From the IMG/VR virus record IMGVR_UViG_3300025889_001241, positions 1-20,007 of that record: a DNA stretch of 20,007 nt; one strand, written 5' to 3'. Below, one piece after another: positions 6,390 to 20,007 of the stretch (its first letter is position 1; the number at the start of each line of letters is the position of its first letter). The stretch comes from a virus. Under the pieces are notes generated by a model that did no database searches, was not told the DNA's origin, and saw only the letters and a program-made list of their open reading frames with translations. A program made the position numbers and the translations under genes.

Positions 6390-6960
6390 AGAGCAGATCT
6401 TCAGACCGGACACGGTAATACTCTTTACCCTCGATCTCGATACGGTAATCCATGTTCTTGGCAAACCCAACAACATCACCCTTCTTCACACCAAGCTCTT
6501 TCTGCTGTGGTGTATCGAAGCTAACCCTACCTTTCAGTACAGGCTCCTCTTCGAGCTTTACGATTTCAATGATTTCAGAATCTGGCTCAACTTCTTCTTC
6601 AGTTGATTCCAGTAGTGACCAACCAAACAAAGGAGTGATGTCACCAGTTTCCTTCCCCATGAAAGCAATCGCTTGATTGCTGATTGTAAACTTCGGATCA
6701 CATTTAACAGTGTAGTGGTTGTCAACTCCAGTAAGCGGTTGCCCACCTTGGATGACCACCAGATGATGAAAATACAGAGTGTCGCCAACGCTAACACCAG
6801 TGTCGTACTTGCTTGGTGCAGCCACGACTTTACCTTCTGTAGTGCGGTGTTCAAACTCATTGTACTTCGTGTCTACGAATAACTCTAACCCGCTGTCAAG
6901 CGTGATAGTGTCGTTAAGAGGTTTATCAACCTCCACGACAAATAAATCTAGTGTACGCAT
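6376..6960 (-). CDS. GroES-like (co-chaperonin fold) protein
   Basis: A 194-residue protein with two stretches resembling GroES beta-barrel halves. Near the N-terminus: TEGKVVAAPSKYDTGVSVGD then TLYFHH, the GKV-V-GD pattern. At the C-terminus: ELGVKKGDVVGFAKNMDYRI, then EIEGKEYYRVRSEDLLYVE, which matches the end of GroES (GD-V-F...I-GEEY-V-...DILAVE). Between them lie a His-rich loop region and an acidic linker (ESTEEEVEPDSEIIEIVKLE). GroES caps GroEL; phage versions such as T4 gp31 replace it to fold a large capsid protein. The length is about twice that of GroES, so it is either a capping protein with a large insert or a virion protein that borrowed the fold. It sits in the terminase-portal operon, 3 bp after the preceding gene. 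Confidence 0.7.
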   Translation of the reverse strand: MRTLDLFVVEVDKPLNDTITLDSGLELFVDTKYNEFEHRTTEGKVVAAPSKYDTGVSVGDTLYFHHLVVIQGGQPLTGVDNHYTVKCDPKFTISNQAIAFMGKETGDITPLFGWSLLESTEEEVEPDSEIIEIVKLEEEPVLKGRVSFDTPQQKELGVKKGDVVGFAKNMDYRIEIEGKEYYRVRSEDLLYVET

Positions 6961-12179: not shown

Positions 12180-12548
12180 GTAATGTAGATGGTGGGGATT
12201 ATACGTACCTATACACGCTCACGCACGCACACGGAAGTGCATCTGCGAACCCCGTGGGCATTATGCGCACCGGGTTGGGCCACAACTTTTAGCTTTTTGC
12301 TAGGTACTACGTACCTAACGACTTGAGGTGTAGCGTGACCGAGTGGGCCACTGCCGTCAGACCTATGGTCTGTTTCTCTTGGGGGACAAACCCCATCCCC
12401 CACTACTCTACAGGTTTGGTAGACTCCCCCTTCGGGGTCGCATGCGCCTGTGTATGAGGGCTTTGCCCGGTGGCCGCATGCCCCTGCACACATGCGATCG
12501 CACACGGGCTGATGGCCCTTCTACTCCCCTACGGGGAGTACTTTTTTA
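12180..12548 (+). ncRNA. Candidate structured noncoding RNA ending at an intrinsic terminator
   Basis: This GC-rich stretch has no credible protein gene but many strong stems in order: 12251-12274 (CCCGTG.GCA with TGC.CAC.GGG); 12301-12317 (TAGGTAC-TAC-GTACCTA); 12358-12372 (CAGACC-TAT-GGTCTG); 12380-12402 (TGGGGGA with TCCCCCA); a long-range GCATGCG (12440-12446) with CGCATGC (12475-12481) enclosing GGGC-TTT-GCCC; then the terminator at 12522. A plus-strand terminator in a divergent intergenic region implies a transcript that starts inside it. The 5' end is not defined and no good plus promoter was found. It matches no RNA family I can name; large phage RNAs such as GOLLD or ROOL are possible comparisons only. 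Confidence 0.5.
12522..12548 (+). terminator. Rho-independent terminator
   Basis: TACTCCCC (12522-12529), loop TAC, GGGGAGTA (12533-12540), then CTTTTTTAT. The 8-bp perfect stem plus T run works on the plus strand only. It lies 25 bp upstream of promoter P1, so it insulates the right block from, or ends, a transcript of the structured region before it. Confidence 0.88.
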
Positions 12549-12572
12549 TCAGAAAAAAAACTTGCCTCCAGA

Positions 12573-12619
12573 TTTGGAATTTCCGGAAACAAGCTAGTAT
12601 CTTTGGAGCACCGATCGGC
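12573..12619 (+). promoter_or_regulatory. Promoter P1 with downstream CCGATCGGC element
   Basis: TTTG (12573-12576), 21 bp, TATCTTTG (12598-12605), as in the Bacteroidota consensus TTTG-N19-21-TAnnTTTG. CCGATCGGC (12611-12619) follows where transcription should start. The core is shared with P2, P3 and P4. It drives the genes at 12651 and 13398. Confidence 0.85.
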
Positions 12620-12650
12620 ACCGAAGCTGACGGCTCAAAACACATCGAAG

Positions 12651-13358
12651 ATGTCAAACACACGAATCGACCTCCTGAAGGAGGTTAAGACCTCGGTCAA
12701 CTCAGCGACCTTCGCTCCTTCGGAGCAACGCATTAAAGCCGCTAAAGCGGCGATCAACCAGCTTATCAACTACGTTGATAGCTTGGAAGTTCCTGCCTCT
12801 AAGCCTTCGAAGAAGGCCAAGAAGTCACCGAAGGTGACCAAGTCAAAGTCACAGCCGAAGGCTGTACTGAAGTCGGAGCGATGGATCATGGTTCGCAGAG
12901 ACTCTGTCTCTGGAATGTACCAAGTCACCGAAGGTGAAACTGTACTCGGAGAGTACAAGAAGCGAAAGACGGCTCGGGCTATGGCCACTAAGTTCAGCAA
13001 AGCTGAAGGTCAGCCGAAGGCTGTAGTTCGAAAGCCGAAGGCTTCTAAGAAGACTTCGTCTTCTAACCGTAGAGCGAAGCTCAACCCCAACCAACGGTTG
13101 GAAGTTCAGCAAGCCAAAGCCAATGTAGCTGAAAGCTACATAGAAACCCCGAAGCAGTCTGCAAAGCAGAACAAACCGAAGGTTGCTGAAGTCCCCTTCG
13201 AGCTGTCCGAAGGACAGTGTCCAATCGAAGCGGCTCGCTACGCCAAGCACTTGGCCATGCAAGAGATCTTCGATCTCGAGACTGGAATCGAAGATTCCCT
13301 GATCTTCGAAGAAGATATCACGTTCGATGACCTTTCAGGTCAGATCAGCCTCTTCTAA
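12651..13358 (+). CDS. Lys-rich protein encoded by the densest hairpin array
   Basis: A 235-residue soluble protein. The ATG at 12651 is chosen because a TTG reading from 12603 would start inside the -7 box. The N-terminus is helical (RIDLLKEVKTSVNSATFAPS; KAAKAAINQLINYVDSLEV). A compact beta unit at about residues 75-115 reads RWIMVRRDSVSGMYQVTEGE then TVLGEYKKRKTARAMATKFS, flanked by low-complexity Lys/Pro linkers with repeated QPKAV/KPKA phrases. The C-terminus is acidic. No family is recognised; the basic linkers suggest nucleic acid binding. About 21 triloop and 3 tetraloop hairpins of at least 5 bp occupy its 708 bp, in more than one codon frame, and the stop codon lies in the last one. 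First gene after P1. Confidence 0.8.
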   Translation: MSNTRIDLLKEVKTSVNSATFAPSEQRIKAAKAAINQLINYVDSLEVPASKPSKKAKKSPKVTKSKSQPKAVLKSERWIMVRRDSVSGMYQVTEGETVLGEYKKRKTARAMATKFSKAEGQPKAVVRKPKASKKTSSSNRRAKLNPNQRLEVQQAKANVAESYIETPKQSAKQNKPKVAEVPFELSEGQCPIEAARYAKHLAMQEIFDLETGIEDSLIFEEDITFDDLSGQISLF

Positions 13359-13369
13359 GCGAAGCTTAG
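13355..13369 (+). repeat. Stop-codon hairpin CTAAGC-GAA-GCTTAG
   Basis: A 6-bp perfect stem with GAA loop. The TAA stop of the 12651 gene (13356-13358) is in the 5' arm. Compared with the TAAAC-GAA-GTTTA copies further right, one base pair is exchanged on both sides (A-T to G-C). Confidence 0.8.
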
Positions 13370-13397
13370 TATTACAAACCCTCTAAATTCATCGAAG

Positions 13398-13859
13398 ATG
13401 AAAAACAAAAGATCACCTTACGCTGACCCTAATCTCGTAGAGATTAAAGACATTGTCAAGTCTGTTATTACAGACTGGGCTGAAGAACACCGTCATGACC
13501 AAACTACGTTTGGGGTTCGTGGCATCTCCCTTGGCCTCCTTTGGAGGGACGATGATGATCCCATTTGGGACACCGACACCGAGGGAACCAAAGGTTACCC
13601 CGAAGTGTTCAACGAAGTTGAATTCCGTCGCCTACTCATGGAGGTGGCTGAGGAGTACCACAGTCTCTTAGACTGTGTAATCGAAGACATAATCTACGAT
13701 TATGGTTACGAAGGCTCTGAGGTTTTACCTCATGCTATCGAAGGGCTTAACCAATACATTGGTTATGAAGCTTTCCCCAACAGTACGTTCCTTTGGAACG
13801 ATGAAGGCTACCCGGAGGAGCATCACGTGGTCATGGATGACCGCACCGTATGGGGATAA
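13398..13859 (+). CDS. Acidic protein of unknown function
   Basis: A 153-residue acidic protein: DIVKSVITDWAEEHRHDQTT near the start, GLLWRDDDDPIWDTDTEGTK in the middle, then helices (EVEFRRLLMEVAEEYHSLLD; CVIEDIIYDYGYEGSEVL). No family is recognised; no signal peptide. The ATG is preceded by ATTCATCGAAG and no Shine-Dalgarno sequence. Second gene of the P1 unit, 39 bp after the previous stop. It contains at least eight hairpins of 6 bp or more, including 13459-13476 (AGTCTGT/TATT), 13608-13622 (TTCAAC/GAA), 13718-13732 (TGAGGT/TTT) and 13786-13800 (CGTTCC/TTT). Confidence 0.75.
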   Translation: MKNKRSPYADPNLVEIKDIVKSVITDWAEEHRHDQTTFGVRGISLGLLWRDDDDPIWDTDTEGTKGYPEVFNEVEFRRLLMEVAEEYHSLLDCVIEDIIYDYGYEGSEVLPHAIEGLNQYIGYEAFPNSTFLWNDEGYPEEHHVVMDDRTVWG

Positions 13860-13901
13860 TGGCTCCCTTACCGAAGGTAGAAAGTTATTATAGAAATTAG
13901 A

Positions 13902-13950
13902 TTTGGATTTGTCGAACACAATCCCTTATCTTTGTAACCGTCGATCGGCA
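13902..13950 (+). promoter_or_regulatory. Promoter P2 with CGATCGGCA element
   Basis: TTTG (13902-13905), 21 bp, TATCTTTG (13927-13934), then CGATCGGCA (13942-13950). Same architecture as P1 and P3. It starts the second unit, beginning with the gene at 13984. Confidence 0.85.
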
Positions 13951-13983
13951 CTAAGCCACGGCACTCACTCAAAACATCACATC

Positions 13984-14130
13984 ATGCTCAAAGCACTCGA
14001 AGCAGCAAAGCTGCAAGCCCTCCAAGACCTCGTATTCACCTTTGGTGAGAACGCTACCACCACTAAGCAGTTCTCTGAACTGTCTGTCGATGATCAGATG
14101 CTCGTAGAGCAGATGCTTGACGAGGCGTGA
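13984..14130 (+). CDS. 48-residue small protein, unknown
   Basis: MLKALEAAKLQALQDLVFTF, then GENATTTKQFSELSVDDQML and VEQMLDEA: a short helical, acidic protein. The ATG at 13984 follows CATCACATC, the usual start leader of this block. A longer reading from 13903 would begin inside the P2 -33 box and is rejected. First gene of the P2 unit. The TGA stop lies in a hairpin (14124-14138). Hairpins inside it include 14068-14082 (CAGTTC/TCT). No function can be assigned. Confidence 0.65.
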   Translation: MLKALEAAKLQALQDLVFTFGENATTTKQFSELSVDDQMLVEQMLDEA

Positions 14131-14138
14131 CACACGCC
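14124..14138 (+). repeat. Stop-codon hairpin GGCGTG-ACA-CACGCC
   Basis: A perfect 6-bp stem with 3-nt loop. The TGA stop (14128-14130) spans the end of the 5' arm and the loop. Unrelated in sequence to the TAAAC hairpins but the same design. Confidence 0.7.
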
Positions 14139-14140
14139 GC

Positions 14141-14183
14141 AACTGTGACGGTCTTCGACCGGGTTCGACTCCCGGTGCAGTTC
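14141..14183 (+). other. Minimal tRNA-like fold (acceptor plus T arm, no D or anticodon arm)
   Basis: AACTGTG (14141-14147) can pair with TGCAGTT (14176-14182) in 7 bp, two of them G-U. Directly before the 3' strand is a canonical T arm: CCGGG-TTCGACT-CCCGG (14159-14175), with the TTCRANN loop. Geometry on the 3' side is that of a tRNA, but only 11 nt separate the 5' acceptor strand and the T stem. A competing CGGTC-TTC-GACCG hairpin (14149-14161) shares bases. It could be a tRNA relic, a tRNA mimic, or chance in a hairpin-rich region. Confidence 0.35.
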
Positions 14184-14196
14184 TAAACGAAGTTTA
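14184..14196 (+). repeat. TAAAC-GAA-GTTTA hairpin (intergenic copy)
   Basis: Perfect 5-bp stem with GAA loop, identical to those at 14480 and 14661. Here it does not follow a visible CDS stop but sits right after the tRNA-like fold, then TCTAAACC and the next start. Confidence 0.75.
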
Positions 14197-14215
14197 ATCT
14201 AAACCCTCACATCAT

Positions 14216-14482
14216 ATGTGTAATCAAATCCACTTCTTCAACCCGAAGGGTGAACTGATGTCCACTCAAGACTTTGCTTTCAGCAAAGATGCCACCAAGT
14301 TTGTGGCCCGCAAGCTAAGGCTTGGCAACCGCACCACTGAGTATGTCCGTGGCCGCTTGGCTGACATGAAGCTCGGTGATCACATCAATGTCGGTTTCAC
14401 CGGACTGCAAGTCCACCGCACCGTCGAACTGTCCTACGGACAGCAAGTCTACCGAGTAGTCTTCGATGACTCTTGGAAGTAA
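14216..14482 (+). CDS. Small protein of unknown function
   Basis: An 88-residue mixed alpha/beta protein: MCNQIHFFNPKGELMSTQDF, then KDATKFVARKLRLGNRTTEY and a beta-rich end (LGDHINVGFTGLQVHRTVEL; YGQQVYRVVFDDSWK). One Cys near the N-terminus, no signal peptide. No family is recognised. The ATG is preceded by CTCACATCAT, with no Shine-Dalgarno. Hairpins lie at 14272-14288, 14402-14414 (GGACT/GCA) and 14429-14443 (CTGTCC/TAC). The stop codon is inside the hairpin at 14480. Confidence 0.7.
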   Translation: MCNQIHFFNPKGELMSTQDFAFSKDATKFVARKLRLGNRTTEYVRGRLADMKLGDHINVGFTGLQVHRTVELSYGQQVYRVVFDDSWK

Positions 14483-14492
14483 ACGAAGTTTA
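14480..14492 (+). repeat. Stop-codon hairpin TAAAC-GAA-GTTTA
   Basis: The TAA stop of the 14216 gene is the first three bases of the 5' arm. Perfect 5-bp stem, GAA triloop; followed by ATTTAAATCCTTTCATAA and the next ATG. Confidence 0.8.
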
Positions 14493-14510
14493 ATTTAAAT
14501 CCTTTCATAA

Positions 14511-14663
14511 ATGAAACAGTTTCTTTTCGCCGCTTTAGCGGCAATGTTCCTCGCTTCTTGCTCTATGAGCAACCAAGCACAGCCAACCGTGTATCAAGTG
14601 AAGCACGGCAAGGTGACCAAGCTGTCCAAAGGACAAACCCCGGACTGCATCCGCAACTGGTAA
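14511..14663 (+). CDS. Small predicted lipoprotein
   Basis: A 50-residue ORF, MKQFLFAALAAMFLASCSMS, then NQAQPTVYQVKHGKVTKLSK and GQTPDCIRNW. The Lys start, hydrophobic core and LASC lipobox predict signal peptidase II cleavage before Cys17, giving a lipid-anchored peptide of about 34 residues in the host envelope. Small phage lipoproteins can act in superinfection exclusion or lysis (known for some phages; not shown here). Leader CTTTCATAA is shared with the next gene. Hairpins at 14558-14572 (TTGCTC/TAT) and 14623-14635 (TGTCC/AAA). The stop TAA begins the hairpin at 14661. Confidence 0.8.
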   Translation: MKQFLFAALAAMFLASCSMSNQAQPTVYQVKHGKVTKLSKGQTPDCIRNW

Positions 14664-14673
14664 ACGAAGTTTA
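14661..14673 (+). repeat. Stop-codon hairpin TAAAC-GAA-GTTTA
   Basis: Third identical copy. TAA stop of the lipoprotein gene is in the 5' arm. The following spacer, ATCTAAATCCTTTTCATAA, is nearly the same as the one after the 14480 copy. Confidence 0.8.
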
Positions 14674-14694
14674 ACATCTAAATCCTTTTCATAA

Positions 14695-15051
14695 ATGAAA
14701 AATCTGTTTTCAATCCTCCTCGTAATGGCTATCGCCATCAGTTCACAAGCACAAACCTTCACCACTTCCTCCTCCGGAGGCTTCGACATCGAAAGCGGAG
14801 TGCATACGAACGAGTCGATTACAATCGACGATCAAGTCTTCGAAATCTTCAACACCAAAAGCGGTTCGCAGTACATCAAGTGCATCTCGCCACGTACCGG
14901 AAACGGCTATGCCGTTTGGATCGGTGAGGCTACTGAGCATCGCTTCGAAGGTCGGACTGTTTACCAGTCCAAGAAAGGTAGCTACTGTGTCTACAAGATC
15001 TCCGCTAAAAGCGGCAATCCATACCCTGTATGGTTGAAAGAGACCGAATAA
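14695..15051 (+). CDS. Secreted protein with two internal repeats
   Basis: A 118-residue protein with a signal peptide (MKNLFSILLVMAIAISSQAQ, likely cut after SQA). The mature part has two related units: FNTKSGSQYIKCISPRTGNG then YAVWIGE, and YQSKKGSYCVYKISAKSGNP then YPVWLKE. The shared pattern is K-GS-Y-....-SGN-Y-VW. It should be exported to the periplasm or cell surface, and may bind or block an envelope component (inference). Each repeat has one Cys, so a disulphide is possible. It follows the lipoprotein gene with the same leader, suggesting a paired envelope function. Hairpins include 14814-14829, 14901-14917 and 15019-15033. Confidence 0.8.
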   Translation: MKNLFSILLVMAIAISSQAQTFTTSSSGGFDIESGVHTNESITIDDQVFEIFNTKSGSQYIKCISPRTGNGYAVWIGEATEHRFEGRTVYQSKKGSYCVYKISAKSGNPYPVWLKETE

Positions 15052-15057
15052 TTCGAA

Positions 15058-15095
15058 ACTCCCCCTTCGGGGAGTCTGCACCCTTCAGCAAGGTG
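15058..15095 (+). other. Tandem hairpins after the secreted-protein gene
   Basis: ACTCCCC-CTTC-GGGGAGT (15058-15075, 7 bp perfect) and CACC.CTT with AAGGTG (15079-15095, one bulge). No T run follows, so this is not a standard terminator; it may be an mRNA processing or stability element. The first stem resembles the terminator stem at 12522. Confidence 0.6.
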
Positions 15096-15134
15096 TACTG
15101 ACGAGATAGCTGAATGTAATTCAAAACTCACATT

Positions 15135-15632
15135 ATGTTCGACATGAACAAGTTCGATTGGGTTCACAACCAATTGCAAATGAACCACGGTTCATTCCAT
15201 AACGCCATGCTCGAGGCATGGTTCAAGGCTTCGCCTGACAACAAAGCAAGACTCGAAGAGTCGTTCCCTGAATTCTTCACCTTCGGTATGAAGAACCGAT
15301 GTCAGATGATCGAATGGCTTATCGAAGACATGAAGCTTCTTCATGTTCAACCCCACGAACACTTCGAAGGGTATGCTCTGAATTCCTCAGAAGGAATTTG
15401 GATGTCGGCTGAGTACGACGATGATCCATACTTTATGGATGGACTTCGAATCTTCGATTACTACCAGTACGGTGGTGGTGACTCGCCGTATGACGGTGGT
15501 GTGCTGATGAAGTTCAAAGAACTTCTGAGAAAGTATGGATGGTACTTGTCATGGAATGACCCCGGTACAATCGCACTATTCCCTCTCTACGAGAACACAT
15601 TAGATCACAAACTTAGTCAATGTGACTACTAA
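15135..15632 (+). CDS. Phage protein with GSF..A FPEFF N-terminal unit
   Basis: A 165-residue protein. The N-terminal third, FDWVHNQLQMNHGSFHNAML then EAWFKASPDNKARLEESFPE followed by FF, follows a pattern (GSF..A...A....N...L...FPE.F) that I recall in many small phage proteins of unknown function. The C-terminal part is rich in Tyr/Asp (SAEYDDDPYFMDGLRIFDYY) and may be a second domain. No catalytic motif and no export signal. ATG follows CAAAACTCACATT. Contains hairpins at 15079-region excluded, 15179-15196 (8 bp, 2-nt loop), 15328-15346, 15381-15398, 15424-15440 and 15509-15525. Confidence 0.75.
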   Translation: MFDMNKFDWVHNQLQMNHGSFHNAMLEAWFKASPDNKARLEESFPEFFTFGMKNRCQMIEWLIEDMKLLHVQPHEHFEGYALNSSEGIWMSAEYDDDPYFMDGLRIFDYYQYGGGDSPYDGGVLMKFKELLRKYGWYLSWNDPGTIALFPLYENTLDHKLSQCDY

Positions 15633-15650
15633 TCAAAACCCCCATTGAAA

Positions 15651-15836
15651 ATGACTAAAGCAGAATTGATCCAAGCCTTAGAAGGCTTTAACGACAACGA
15701 CCACGTTGTAGTAGAAGTACATGACACGGTGCTGAAGGAAGGTCTTTACGACCTCGACTTAGACTTCATAACCGTAAACTTCAAAGAAGATATCACTGAA
15801 ATCCGAATCTGTCCAATCGAATACGGCAATGAGTAA
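15651..15836 (+). CDS. 61-residue small acidic protein
   Basis: MTKAELIQALEGFNDNDHVV, then VEVHDTVLKEGLYDLDLDFI and TVNFKEDITEIRICPIEYGN plus E. An N-terminal helix is followed by beta strands; overall acidic. Resembles small phage proteins that start M-K-EL-LE-L-D-V (a loose pattern only). ATG at 15651 is preferred over an in-frame TTG 6 bp earlier. The leader AACCCCCATTGAAA is almost the same as that of the gene at 16066. It overlaps the next gene by 8 bp. Confidence 0.72.
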   Translation: MTKAELIQALEGFNDNDHVVVEVHDTVLKEGLYDLDLDFITVNFKEDITEIRICPIEYGNE

Positions 15837-16053
15837 AGTAAAAATGCAAACAAGGTTTGGGGTTGTCTACGTTGACGGCTCCTTCCGTTCTCGGAACGGT
15901 AAAGTCCACACCAAGACTGAGATGAAAACCTTCATCGGTCAATACAAAGGTGTGAACCGCATCCACAAACCCATGTCACTCCTGTTCTACACAGATGTGA
16001 TGAACGGCAAGACTGCGTCTTGGAAGTACGCTGAATACGATAACCTCTTTTAA
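15829..16053 (+). CDS. 74-residue basic small protein
   Basis: MSKVKMQTRFGVVYVDGSFR, then SRNGKVHTKTEMKTFIGQYK and a C-terminus with FYTDVMNGKTASWKYAEYDN. Beta-rich and basic. No family is recognised. Its start lies inside the end of the previous gene (ATGAGTAA), so it is likely coupled to it. A start at Met6 is also possible. Hairpin density is lower here than in the genes to the left. Confidence 0.65.
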   Translation: MSKVKMQTRFGVVYVDGSFRSRNGKVHTKTEMKTFIGQYKGVNRIHKPMSLLFYTDVMNGKTASWKYAEYDNLF

Positions 16054-16065
16054 ACCCCATTGAAA

Positions 16066-16296
16066 ATGAACAAGTTAGAACAGTTTCAACAAATGCTCCA
16101 GCAACACGACTGGGCATACGTTATGTCAGATGATCACAGCCGCTTCATGGCAGGTGTTGCTTCAACTGAAAAGTTGAGAGCCTTTGCAATCGAAATCGAC
16201 TGCGAAGCATCCCGCTCCATGTGGAGCGTCTATGCTTATGTACCTTCGTTCACGAAAGGTCGAGTCCCAAAAGCCTACCCCGAAGGGAAAAAATAA
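16066..16296 (+). CDS. 76-residue small protein, last gene of P2 unit
   Basis: MNKLEQFQQMLQQHDWAYVM, then SDDHSRFMAGVASTEKLRAF and AIEIDCEASRSMWSVYAYVP, ending KAYPEGKK. A helix opens the protein and a beta sheet follows. The first 25 residues (L..F..ML..HDW.Y.MSDD) look like a short family found in phages, which I cannot name. The ATG at 16066 is chosen over an in-frame TTG 6 bp upstream. Hairpins at 16162-16177 (TCAACT/GAAA) and 16213-16228 (CGCTCC/ATGT). The stop is just before promoter P3. Confidence 0.72.
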   Translation: MNKLEQFQQMLQQHDWAYVMSDDHSRFMAGVASTEKLRAFAIEIDCEASRSMWSVYAYVPSFTKGRVPKAYPEGKK

Positions 16297-16297
16297 A

Positions 16298-16346
16298 TTT
16301 GGAATTGTCGAATCAGTTCCCTTATCTTTGTAGTCCCCGATCGGCA
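16298..16346 (+). promoter_or_regulatory. Promoter P3 with CCGATCGGCA element
   Basis: TTTG (16298-16301), 21 bp, TATCTTTG (16323-16330), then CCGATCGGCA (16337-16346). The -33 TTTG begins 2 bp after the previous stop codon. Drives the unit from 16378 to about 18438. Confidence 0.85.
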
Positions 16347-16377
16347 ATCTTGTCGGTCATTCATCAAAACTCACATC

Positions 16378-16980
16378 ATGCAAGACCTCACATCAACTGC
16401 GTCACGTAAGCAGATTCGTCGCAACCTTCGAACTTGGTTCTCACGAGCCACCAAAACAGAACTCCTTCAGGGTGCCGTATGGTACACCGAGGCACAGACC
16501 TTCTCACGTCAGATGTCAGACACTTACGGTGTGTCACGAGAGGTTGCTGCCGGAGTCATCTCCGCTCTGTCCCCCAACAACAAGTGGGAGCGCAACAAGT
16601 ATGACACGATCCAAGTGCTGAAAGCAGTAAGAGACGGCAAGTCACCCGATGATGTCAAGGTTTGCACCTATGGTGCTAACAAACGCAAAGCTTTTGCTAT
16701 CGCCTTTGGCGATGCCAAGATCCTGAAGCAGTCCCCCAAGACCTACGCTTTCGCTCGAAATGTCGGTGAGTTGGACGGTAACTATGTTACCATCGACAAG
16801 TGGCACCTTCGTGCCTGTCAGACTTCGTCTCTCAAGTCCAAGCAGTGCCGTGAATCAGTCACCCCACATCAGTACAAAGTACTGTCTCAAGAAACCATCA
16901 AGGTAGCCGCCGAGTACGGTGTCCCTGCCTACGTATTTCAAGCAATCATTTGGGTTACTATTCGTAACCGTTGGAACTAA
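16378..16980 (+). CDS. HhH-glycosylase-like phage protein (DUF7178-type), function unknown
   Basis: A 200-residue helical protein. Order of features: WYTEAQTFSRQMSDTYGVSR, then VAAGVISALSPNNKWERNK, KRKAFAIAFGDAKILKQSPK followed by TYAFARN, and NYVTIDKWHLRAC, ending AYVFQAIIWVTIRNRW. The sequence (A-ALSP-W-N...KA-I..G......GPKT..F.......VTID.W..R) belongs to a family common in phages and recalls the HhH-GPD glycosylase layout, with SPKT at the hairpin and TIDKWHLRA where glycosylases have VDTHVxR. The family name is from memory. A DNA base-excision or DNA-binding role is inferred and unproven. First gene of the P3 unit; ATG follows AAAACTCACATC. Confidence 0.78.
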   Translation: MQDLTSTASRKQIRRNLRTWFSRATKTELLQGAVWYTEAQTFSRQMSDTYGVSREVAAGVISALSPNNKWERNKYDTIQVLKAVRDGKSPDDVKVCTYGANKRKAFAIAFGDAKILKQSPKTYAFARNVGELDGNYVTIDKWHLRACQTSSLKSKQCRESVTPHQYKVLSQETIKVAAEYGVPAYVFQAIIWVTIRNRWN

Positions 16981-16990
16981 ATATCACATC

Positions 16991-17227
16991 ATGAGCGCAA
17001 CTAATTTGCACCGAACCGTCATTGAATCTTGCCTTGCATACTTCAATCAATTTGAATCAGAAGGTATCTCCGCATACGAAGATAGTGGTGACATATATGT
17101 AACTATCCGAGGGTTCGATATTGTACAAATCAGCAAGGCTGAAGCAGTGTGCCGAGCAGATATGTTCTGGGAACAGGAAGCTGAGGCTCATGCGGCCAAT
17201 GTATGGGGTCCCAACCCCTCTGTCTAA
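16991..17227 (+). CDS. 78-residue small acidic protein
   Basis: MSATNLHRTVIESCLAYFNQ, then FESEGISAYEDSGDIYVTIR and GFDIVQISKAEAVCRADMFW, ending WGPNPSV. Two helices surround a short beta unit; acidic. ATG at 16991 follows ATATCACATC; an earlier reading at 16919 overlaps the previous gene and is not used. The pair of Cys residues is not arranged as a zinc site. No family is recognised. A TCAGC-AAG-GCTGA hairpin lies in the second half. Confidence 0.68.
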   Translation: MSATNLHRTVIESCLAYFNQFESEGISAYEDSGDIYVTIRGFDIVQISKAEAVCRADMFWEQEAEAHAANVWGPNPSV

Positions 17228-18576: not shown

Positions 18577-18623
18577 TTTGGAAATACGGAAACAGTCTCT
18601 TATCTTTGCAGAGCCGATTCCGG
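18577..18623 (+). promoter_or_regulatory. Promoter P4 with variant CCGATTCCGG element
   Basis: TTTG (18577-18580), 20 bp, TATCTTTG (18601-18608), then CCGATTCCGG (18614-18623), a diverged version of the CCGATCGGC element. Drives the unit from 18661. Confidence 0.82.
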
Positions 18624-19932: not shown

Positions 19933-20006
19933 GCTCCCGTAGCTCAGCTGGATAGAGCATCTGCCTTCTAAGCAGACGGCCACAGGTTCGAATCCTGTCG
20001 GGAGTA
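19933..20006 (+). tRNA. tRNA-Arg (anticodon TCT)
   Basis: Full cloverleaf: acceptor GCTCCCG with CGGGAGT (one G-U), D stem GCTC with GAGC, anticodon stem TCTGC with GCAGA around loop CTTCTAA (anticodon TCT, reads AGA), T arm ACAGG-TTCGAAT-CCTGT, discriminator A. The window ends one base later (C), so an encoded CCA cannot be judged. Phage tRNAs often compensate codons rare in the host (general knowledge). Confidence 0.97.
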
Positions 20007-20007
20007 C

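Follow-up and report, generated by a model that had tools for sequence, protein, structure and literature searches.

Palindromes within coding sequence are familiar from the Rickettsia palindromic elements, which form families of similar, decaying sequence. Perfect inverted repeats in nematomorph mitochondrial coding sequence, for which template switching has been proposed, were described in a paper that also mentions the Rickettsia elements (PMC6649704). Template-switch mutations that create and repair hairpins have been described in RNA genes and in yeast coding genes (PMC8794818; PMC8604942). A different kind of system is represented by the N4 early promoters, in which a DNA mini-hairpin with a 5-7 bp stem and a sheared G.A loop is extruded by supercoiling (PMC4496689). 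Here we analyzed IMG/VR virus record IMGVR_UViG_3300025889_001241, a fragment of 20,007 bases (the window, meaning the whole of that record), which contains a dense array of perfect mini-hairpins. The array resembles the coding palindromes on a scale one tenth of theirs, but it also obeys a loop rule and is strictly local. No such array in phages was reported in the open-licence literature searched.

Perfect hairpins in coding sequence

The array and the two genes for which hairpins were counted separately are as follows.

12281-17000: hairpin array, 96 perfect hairpins (stem at least 5 bp, loop 3-4 nt)
12651-13358, + strand: gene 1, coding for a 235-amino-acid lysine-rich protein
13398-13859, + strand: gene 2, 153 amino acids

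The array is confined to the start of the rightward small-gene cluster of the window, and the majority of its hairpins are intragenic, located within coding sequence rather than at stops. In the array core (12600-15700), 78 hairpins with stems of at least 5 bp follow one another at a median spacing of 34 nt and cover 36% of the bases. With stems of at least 6 bp and loops of 3-4 nt, the window holds 76 perfect hairpins compared to 12.4 in dinucleotide shuffles, and 44 of the 76 are packed in one 3-kb stretch. The + strand genes contain 39 triloop hairpins (stem at least 6 bp), whereas permutation of synonymous codons within genes gives 5.1. The leftward genes are near background (5 vs 2.1 under synonymous shuffling). 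For gene 1 (stretch 12654-13358, stem at least 6 bp) the corresponding numbers are 15 and 1.4, and for gene 2 they are 7 and 0.42. The excess over synonymous shuffles means that the pattern is written into coding sequence beyond the protein requirement. The phase of the loops relative to codons is 23:4:14, a bias that would be expected if wobble positions supply the pairing.

Two simple sources of such a pattern were considered and rejected. Plain codon usage or base composition is not the cause, as neither synonymous nor dinucleotide shuffles give the array. Nor do the hairpins belong to a single family of dispersed repeats: the direct repeats are short and not numerous, and the stems are mostly unrelated to one another. 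Candidate copies of a mobile palindromic element amount to one 24-base copy between different genes plus a few short repeats.

The likeness to the nematomorph palindromes extends to several features. Both consist of perfect repeats inside coding sequence that go beyond codon choice, as the synonymous shuffle demonstrates here. Both lack an excess of imperfect repeats; in our data stems with one mismatch are near expectation, and perfect ones are up tenfold. Codon-phase bias is common to both, and so are gain and loss, seen there between species. However, nematomorph palindromes reach 284 bp, whereas the phage stems are 4-8 bp and long arms do not occur. The phage array further differs in its 3-base, C-G-closed, often GNA loops, in its restriction to one 1-4 kb segment and in its presence also at starts and stops. 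With the Rickettsia elements the array shares the location of palindromes within coding sequence and, in one instance, a hairpin segment common to two unrelated genes, but the phage stems are mostly mutually unrelated and remain perfect.

Stem and loop anatomy and paired evolution

Among six-pair stems in the coding sequence of four contigs, 75 are perfect compared to 7.5 expected. Stems with one internal G.T (3 vs 5.1 expected) or one A.C (4 vs 7.2) are near or below expectation, and therefore wobble is not tolerated. RNA helices under selection normally accept G.U. The excess is limited to stems of 4-8 bp and is biggest for 3-base loops; no triloop stem of at least 9 bp is present in 12281-17000. 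Of 72 hairpins (stem at least 5 bp), 54 are closed by a C-G pair. GNA or TNC loops occur in 32 of the 54 C-closed hairpins, compared to 31 of 186 CNNNG sites with a non-matching next pair. TNC corresponds to GNA on the opposite strand, and both are enriched; stem G+C is not raised. The two strands give almost the same folding z-scores, which become stronger when DNA parameters are used (the RNA folding z is about -1.95 in the array core). Strict Watson-Crick pairing, C-G-closed 3-base loops, GNA on either strand and similar z-scores on the two strands make DNA likelier than RNA as the folded molecule, judging by these sequence features.

C(GNA)G is a known stable DNA mini-hairpin, found for example in N4 early promoters (PMC4496689). 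A subset of the phage hairpins shares with the latter a 5-7 bp stem, a 3-base G(R)A loop and C-G closure. N4, however, has three promoters of conserved sequence that are read by the virion polymerase, whereas here about 96 hairpins have no consensus.

We used relatives of the window to analyze how the hairpins evolve. L006 is 97% identical to the window in the amino-acid sequence of the DUF7178 protein, and L035 and L036 are 83% identical to each other in gene 1. Like the window, these three have a hairpin hot spot directly upstream of the DUF7178 gene, with background density elsewhere. The hot spot is weaker in L015 and L018, and little of it is seen in L089. In relatives, the hot spots span 1-4 kb at the matching place.

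Changes at inner stem pairs were compared to those at mirror pairs outside hairpins, a background that is not matched for codon position. From the window to L006, one-sided stem changes are rarer than in the background (0.033 vs 0.146), and two-sided Watson-Crick changes are more frequent (0.023 vs 0.0026). The L036/L035 pair behaves similarly in both directions, with 0.053-0.080 vs 0.24 for one-sided and 0.042-0.064 vs 0.006-0.009 for two-sided Watson-Crick changes. Overall, the stems in these two pairs of relatives show about 2-5 fold fewer one-sided changes than the background and 7-11 fold more two-sided Watson-Crick changes. Examples of compensated pairs are ATCACT-GCA-AGTGAT vs ATCGTT-GGA-AACGAT, in which both arms alter amino acids, TACTAC-TAC-GTAGTA vs TATCCC-TAC-GGGATA, and GCCGC-TTTA-GCGGC vs GCTGC-TTCA-GCAGC. 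Loop inversion was not seen in any compensated pair. The rate of change per site is 0.04-0.12 in stems and 0.07-0.15 outside. Third codon positions change more slowly in stems than outside (0.069 vs 0.115, 0.175 vs 0.29 and 0.065 vs 0.26), in a comparison limited by small numbers and by the choice of alignment.

Two sites bear on how hairpins arise.

14420-14443, + strand: 24-base segment with CTGTCC-TAC-GGACAG, identical to L006 positions 6662-6685 in a different, unrelated gene
16008-16022, + strand: CAAGAC-TGC-GTCTTG, lineage-specific gain

At the second site L006, L004, L007 and L014 all have CAAGAG-TGC-CGGATG; five changes in about ten bases thus led to a perfect hairpin in a single lineage. 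Both this gain and the 24-base segment are compatible with a supply of hairpins by template switching or recombination. What the array has in common with described template-switch mutations are its perfect stems, its paired multi-base changes and a single-event gain, the one at 16008 being the only clear clustered case. It differs from them in being a local array with a loop rule and in that no loop inversion was seen.

Selection, mutation and competing readings

The explanation that we favor, tentatively and at somewhat below even chances, is that folded DNA hairpins are useful at this segment and that selection maintains them, with arm copying providing new ones. The start of the putative early cluster would carry dense DNA mini-hairpins with 4-8 perfect bp and a 3-base loop, usually C-G-closed and often with GNA on one strand. 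They could form beside the divergent promoters, where negative supercoiling would extrude small cruciforms, or, by an alternative DNA route, as folds within transient single strands. The array might be retained because folded DNA is useful, either bound by a hairpin-recognizing protein or acting as a torsion sink in an early-transcribed region. Arm-to-arm copying in replication may supply perfect new hairpins, which selection would then keep. A bolder version, which we regard as rather doubtful, takes the early coding genes as a scaffold for an extruded C-GNA-G array, selected even at amino-acid cost, whose DNA structure would serve as a signal or a shield in the part of the genome that is transcribed first. 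Should the array be under selection, the virus would be writing a second, structural code, one of DNA shape, into protein-coding letters; phage genome organization would thereby gain a new layer, with a testable protein partner.

A number of observations weigh against this explanation. In the direction from L006 to the window the paired-change signal is weaker (one-sided 0.067 vs 0.120, two-sided Watson-Crick 0.026 vs 0.0023), and there are 9 two-sided non-pairing changes, with whole hairpins replaced. Distant relatives keep only the abundance of hairpins, not their exact positions. In the parts scanned, phi38:1, phi13:2, elemoA and MW202828 are without the array, which is therefore not essential to the wider group. 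The hairpins are predicted to be stable as RNA too (median -4.8 kcal/mol). There is no stem or flank consensus, the flank profile being near uniform, and no binding protein was found. Finally, the single-event gain at 16008 and the perfect-or-nothing pairing equally fit a purely mutational origin.

Such an origin, which we rate as a close rival although likewise below even chances, would make the array a by-product without benefit: single-stranded DNA near a replication or transcription start folds into C-GNA-G, and template switching copies arm to arm, with hairpins arising, being repaired and spreading. Strict Watson-Crick, perfect-or-nothing pairing and the codon-phase bias are as in nematomorph mitochondria (PMC6649704). 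The five-change gain in one lineage, amino-acid-changing double substitutions that create hairpins, the lack of stem or flank consensus and the 24-base hairpin segment in two different genes all agree with it. So does the rate of change in stems, which is only slightly below that outside and nearly what pure, unbiased arm conversion predicts; for this reason we make no stronger claim for selection. By contrast, the lower third-position change in stems, the lack of loop inversion and of stems of at least 9 bp, and the surplus of sense GNA hairpins right at stop codons speak against a by-product, and the restriction to one 1-4 kb segment is left unexplained by it. If template switching makes the hairpins, the locus offers a natural laboratory for how hairpins template mutations while a phage replicates, with dated gains and with pairing that is either perfect or absent. 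Under either reading, two-sided pair changes here are no proof of RNA structure, which calls for caution in covariation-based RNA discovery in viral metagenomes.

Selected RNA structure, in which regularly spaced hairpins of early mRNAs would delay ribosomes, obstruct nucleases or conceal the transcripts from RNA-targeting defence, is improbable. It is true that all hairpins lie within transcribed + strand genes, that the cluster is driven by host-type promoters, that the RNA folding z is low in the core and that the GNA loops of boundary hairpins are on the sense strand. Nevertheless, G.U-containing stems are not in excess, loops have 3 bases rather than 4, and TNC loops are as enriched as a DNA model wants. 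The z-score of the - strand is equally low, and for the repeated hairpin TAAAC-GAA-GTTTA the predicted folding energy as RNA is 0.0 kcal/mol. The unenriched G.T stems and the strand-symmetric folding led us to rule against this explanation.

The first-pass annotation had described stop codons built into covarying GAA hairpins, with a further stop in an ACA hairpin, and proposed that they control ribosome release, reinitiation or 3'-end protection. The hairpins exist as it claimed; they are listed here with those at start codons.

12642-12654, + strand: ACATC-GAA-GATGT, gene 1 start codon (12651) in the 3' arm
13355-13369, + strand: CTAAGC-GAA-GCTTAG, gene 1 stop (13356-13358) in the 5' arm
13388-13402, + strand: TTCATC-GAA-GATGAA, gene 2 start codon (13398) in the 3' arm
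14124-14138, + strand: GGCGTG-ACA-CACGCC, over the stop ending at 14130
14184-14196, + strand: TAAAC-GAA-GTTTA, intergenic, away from any stop
14208-14220, + strand: CACAT-CAT-ATGTG, start codon 14216 in the 3' arm
14480-14492, + strand: TAAAC-GAA-GTTTA, stop of gene 14216-14482 in the 5' arm
14661-14673, + strand: TAAAC-GAA-GTTTA, stop of gene 14511-14663 in the 5' arm

The stop indeed forms the first bases of TAAAC-GAA-GTTTA at 14480 and 14661, and these two together with the 14184 copy are the only ones in the 20-kb record. The annotated hairpins are above chance, but a framing by stops turned out to be too narrow, the stop sites being a small part of the dense array. Covariation had been deduced from paralogous sites in different genes of one genome; true covariation was found separately, between relatives. 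Thus, the genome holds further hairpins and relatives do covary, in line with the annotation. Four of the seven stops in the 12.6-15.7 kb core are inside hairpins (13358, 14130, 14482 and 14663, but not 13859, 15051 and 15632), which is unsurprising because of the hairpin coverage of the core.

The placement at stops nevertheless recurs. Sense GNA hairpins peak at stop codons, with 11 cases at offset 0 or 1 and 0-4 at other offsets. Over all loci, 86 sense GNA hairpins carry a stop triplet within the 5' arm, and in 11 of them it is a real stop (1.67 expected); TNC or other loops show no stop-codon enrichment. Without the window, L006 and the motif-fetched loci the numbers are 3 of 59 vs 1.16 expected (p 0.11), not significant, and two of the three remaining cases are a homologous site, the gene-1 stop of L036 and L089. 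In the window and L006 (both CTAAGC-GAA-GCTTAG), in L036 (TAATC-GAA-GATTA) and in L089 (TAATC-GTA-GATTA), the last being 48% identical in the best aligned segment, a C-GNA-G hairpin holds this stop in its 5' arm. In L035 the hairpin at this site has one mismatch. In other Bacteroidota phages (L094/L097 and L095), GTTTAAAC-GAA-GTTTAAT stands immediately ahead of the next start codon, and GTTTAAAC-GAA-GTTTAA coincides with stops in L095 and L097. Start-codon hairpins show no clear peak across loci.

A stop-based account is inadequate for the array, because most hairpins are intragenic, starts lie in 3' arms, the TAAAC hairpin is not stable as RNA and G.U is not tolerated. It covers only about five of the 96 hairpins. 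We therefore rejected the hairpins as a stop-codon feature only and regard such a device as a very improbable explanation of the array. Ribosome release, reinitiation or 3'-end protection is possible, though weakly supported, for the few stop sites, and the stop placement is a real lead. Separately, a motif scan of bacterial genomes returned mostly an unrelated dispersed repeat of Bacteroidales that terminates in TAAACGAAGTTTAAAATAAA. In the loci L100-L133 this sequence ends a dispersed, partly tandem repeat, GCCGAGGCGCAGCGTGATTG-TAAACGAAGTTTAAAATAAACTGCAAGCCGAGAGCAG, with many copies per Bacteroidales genome.

An array of N4-type virion RNA polymerase promoters, although built on the same DNA motif of a 5-7 bp stem and a 3-base loop with a sheared G.A pair (PMC4496689), is hardly credible and was rejected, given the lack of flank consensus, GNA on the non-template strand of boundary hairpins, the four host-type promoters that serve the cluster and the lack of a polymerase match in the large proteins scanned from the relative MW202828, the window being a fragment.

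Gene content and neighboring features

The left 12 kb of the window consists of leftward genes, including those for the portal, the large terminase (TerL) and a GroES-like protein. This set belongs with Flavobacterium elemoviruses and Cellulophaga phi38:1 and phi13:2, and the source is an uncultured Bacteroidota phage. The array was also considered as a trait of the whole TerL/portal group and rejected as such, since hairpin density in isolated relatives does not rise above background over the parts that were scanned. Megablast against phage records gave no match, and the GC skew of the window did not indicate an origin.

The right 8 kb consists of rightward small genes, probably early ones by analogy, with Bacteroidota-type promoters at 12573, 13902, 16298 and 18577. 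The features upstream of gene 1 and the second promoter are as follows.

12522-12547, + strand: terminator-like hairpin TACTCCCC-TAC-GGGGAGTA followed by TTTTTT, upstream of gene 1 (a putative terminator)
12573-12605, + strand: Bacteroidota-type promoter TTTG-N-TAnnTTTG before gene 1 (motif scan, 0.20 expected per strand)
13902-13934, + strand: second Bacteroidota-type promoter

The promoters at 13902-13934, 16298-16330 and 18577-18608 have TTTGGA...TTATCTTTG in common at near-identical spacing, and CGATCGGCA is located downstream in two of the three. The shared motif, spacing and, in part, CGATCGGCA suggest a common regulatory unit. Gene 1 has no family match. Its lysine-rich product contains KPKA-like repeat stretches that differ in number and order between the window and L006, and it might bind DNA. 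For gene 2, a peptide-pattern search found no relative in IMG/VR.

Several RNA-like elements were noted. The intergenic segment 14139-14183 is like the T-arm and acceptor of a tRNA (CCGGG-TTCGACT-CCCGG, then CAGTT opposite AACTG), and in L006 the T-stem is one pair longer through one extra G and one extra C; ARAGORN calls no tRNA there, and the overall fold has a z of -1.2. A match to the type II hammerhead ribozyme (Rfam RF02276, 36.3 bits vs a gathering threshold of 37) at 15051-15115 overlaps the end of gene 14695-15051, its first base being the final one of the stop codon, and has a counterpart at 6263-6327 in L006. A complete tRNA-Arg (TCT) at 19933-20007 runs to the last base of the record; in L004, L007 and L014 it is inside the contig.

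The DUF7178 protein, encoded at 16378-16980, adjoins the hairpin array in relatives. Its AlphaFold model (pLDDT 92) weakly resembles the 8-oxoguanine DNA glycosylase OGG1 (Foldseek probability 0.89, E 0.17; profile E 1.5), so that by this modeled fold it is possibly a DNA glycosylase. The DUF7178 gene is located at or shortly after the beginning of contigs L005, L007, L008 and L014, which places their starts inside the hairpin region or on its border, possibly as a result of assembly breaks at variable or hairpin-rich DNA. In the rightward region of MW202828 (L085, 745-12154), 14 copies of the 16-bp palindrome GTGTCGTTAACGACAC are present, many beside gene ends; they are likely operators or stoperator-like sites.

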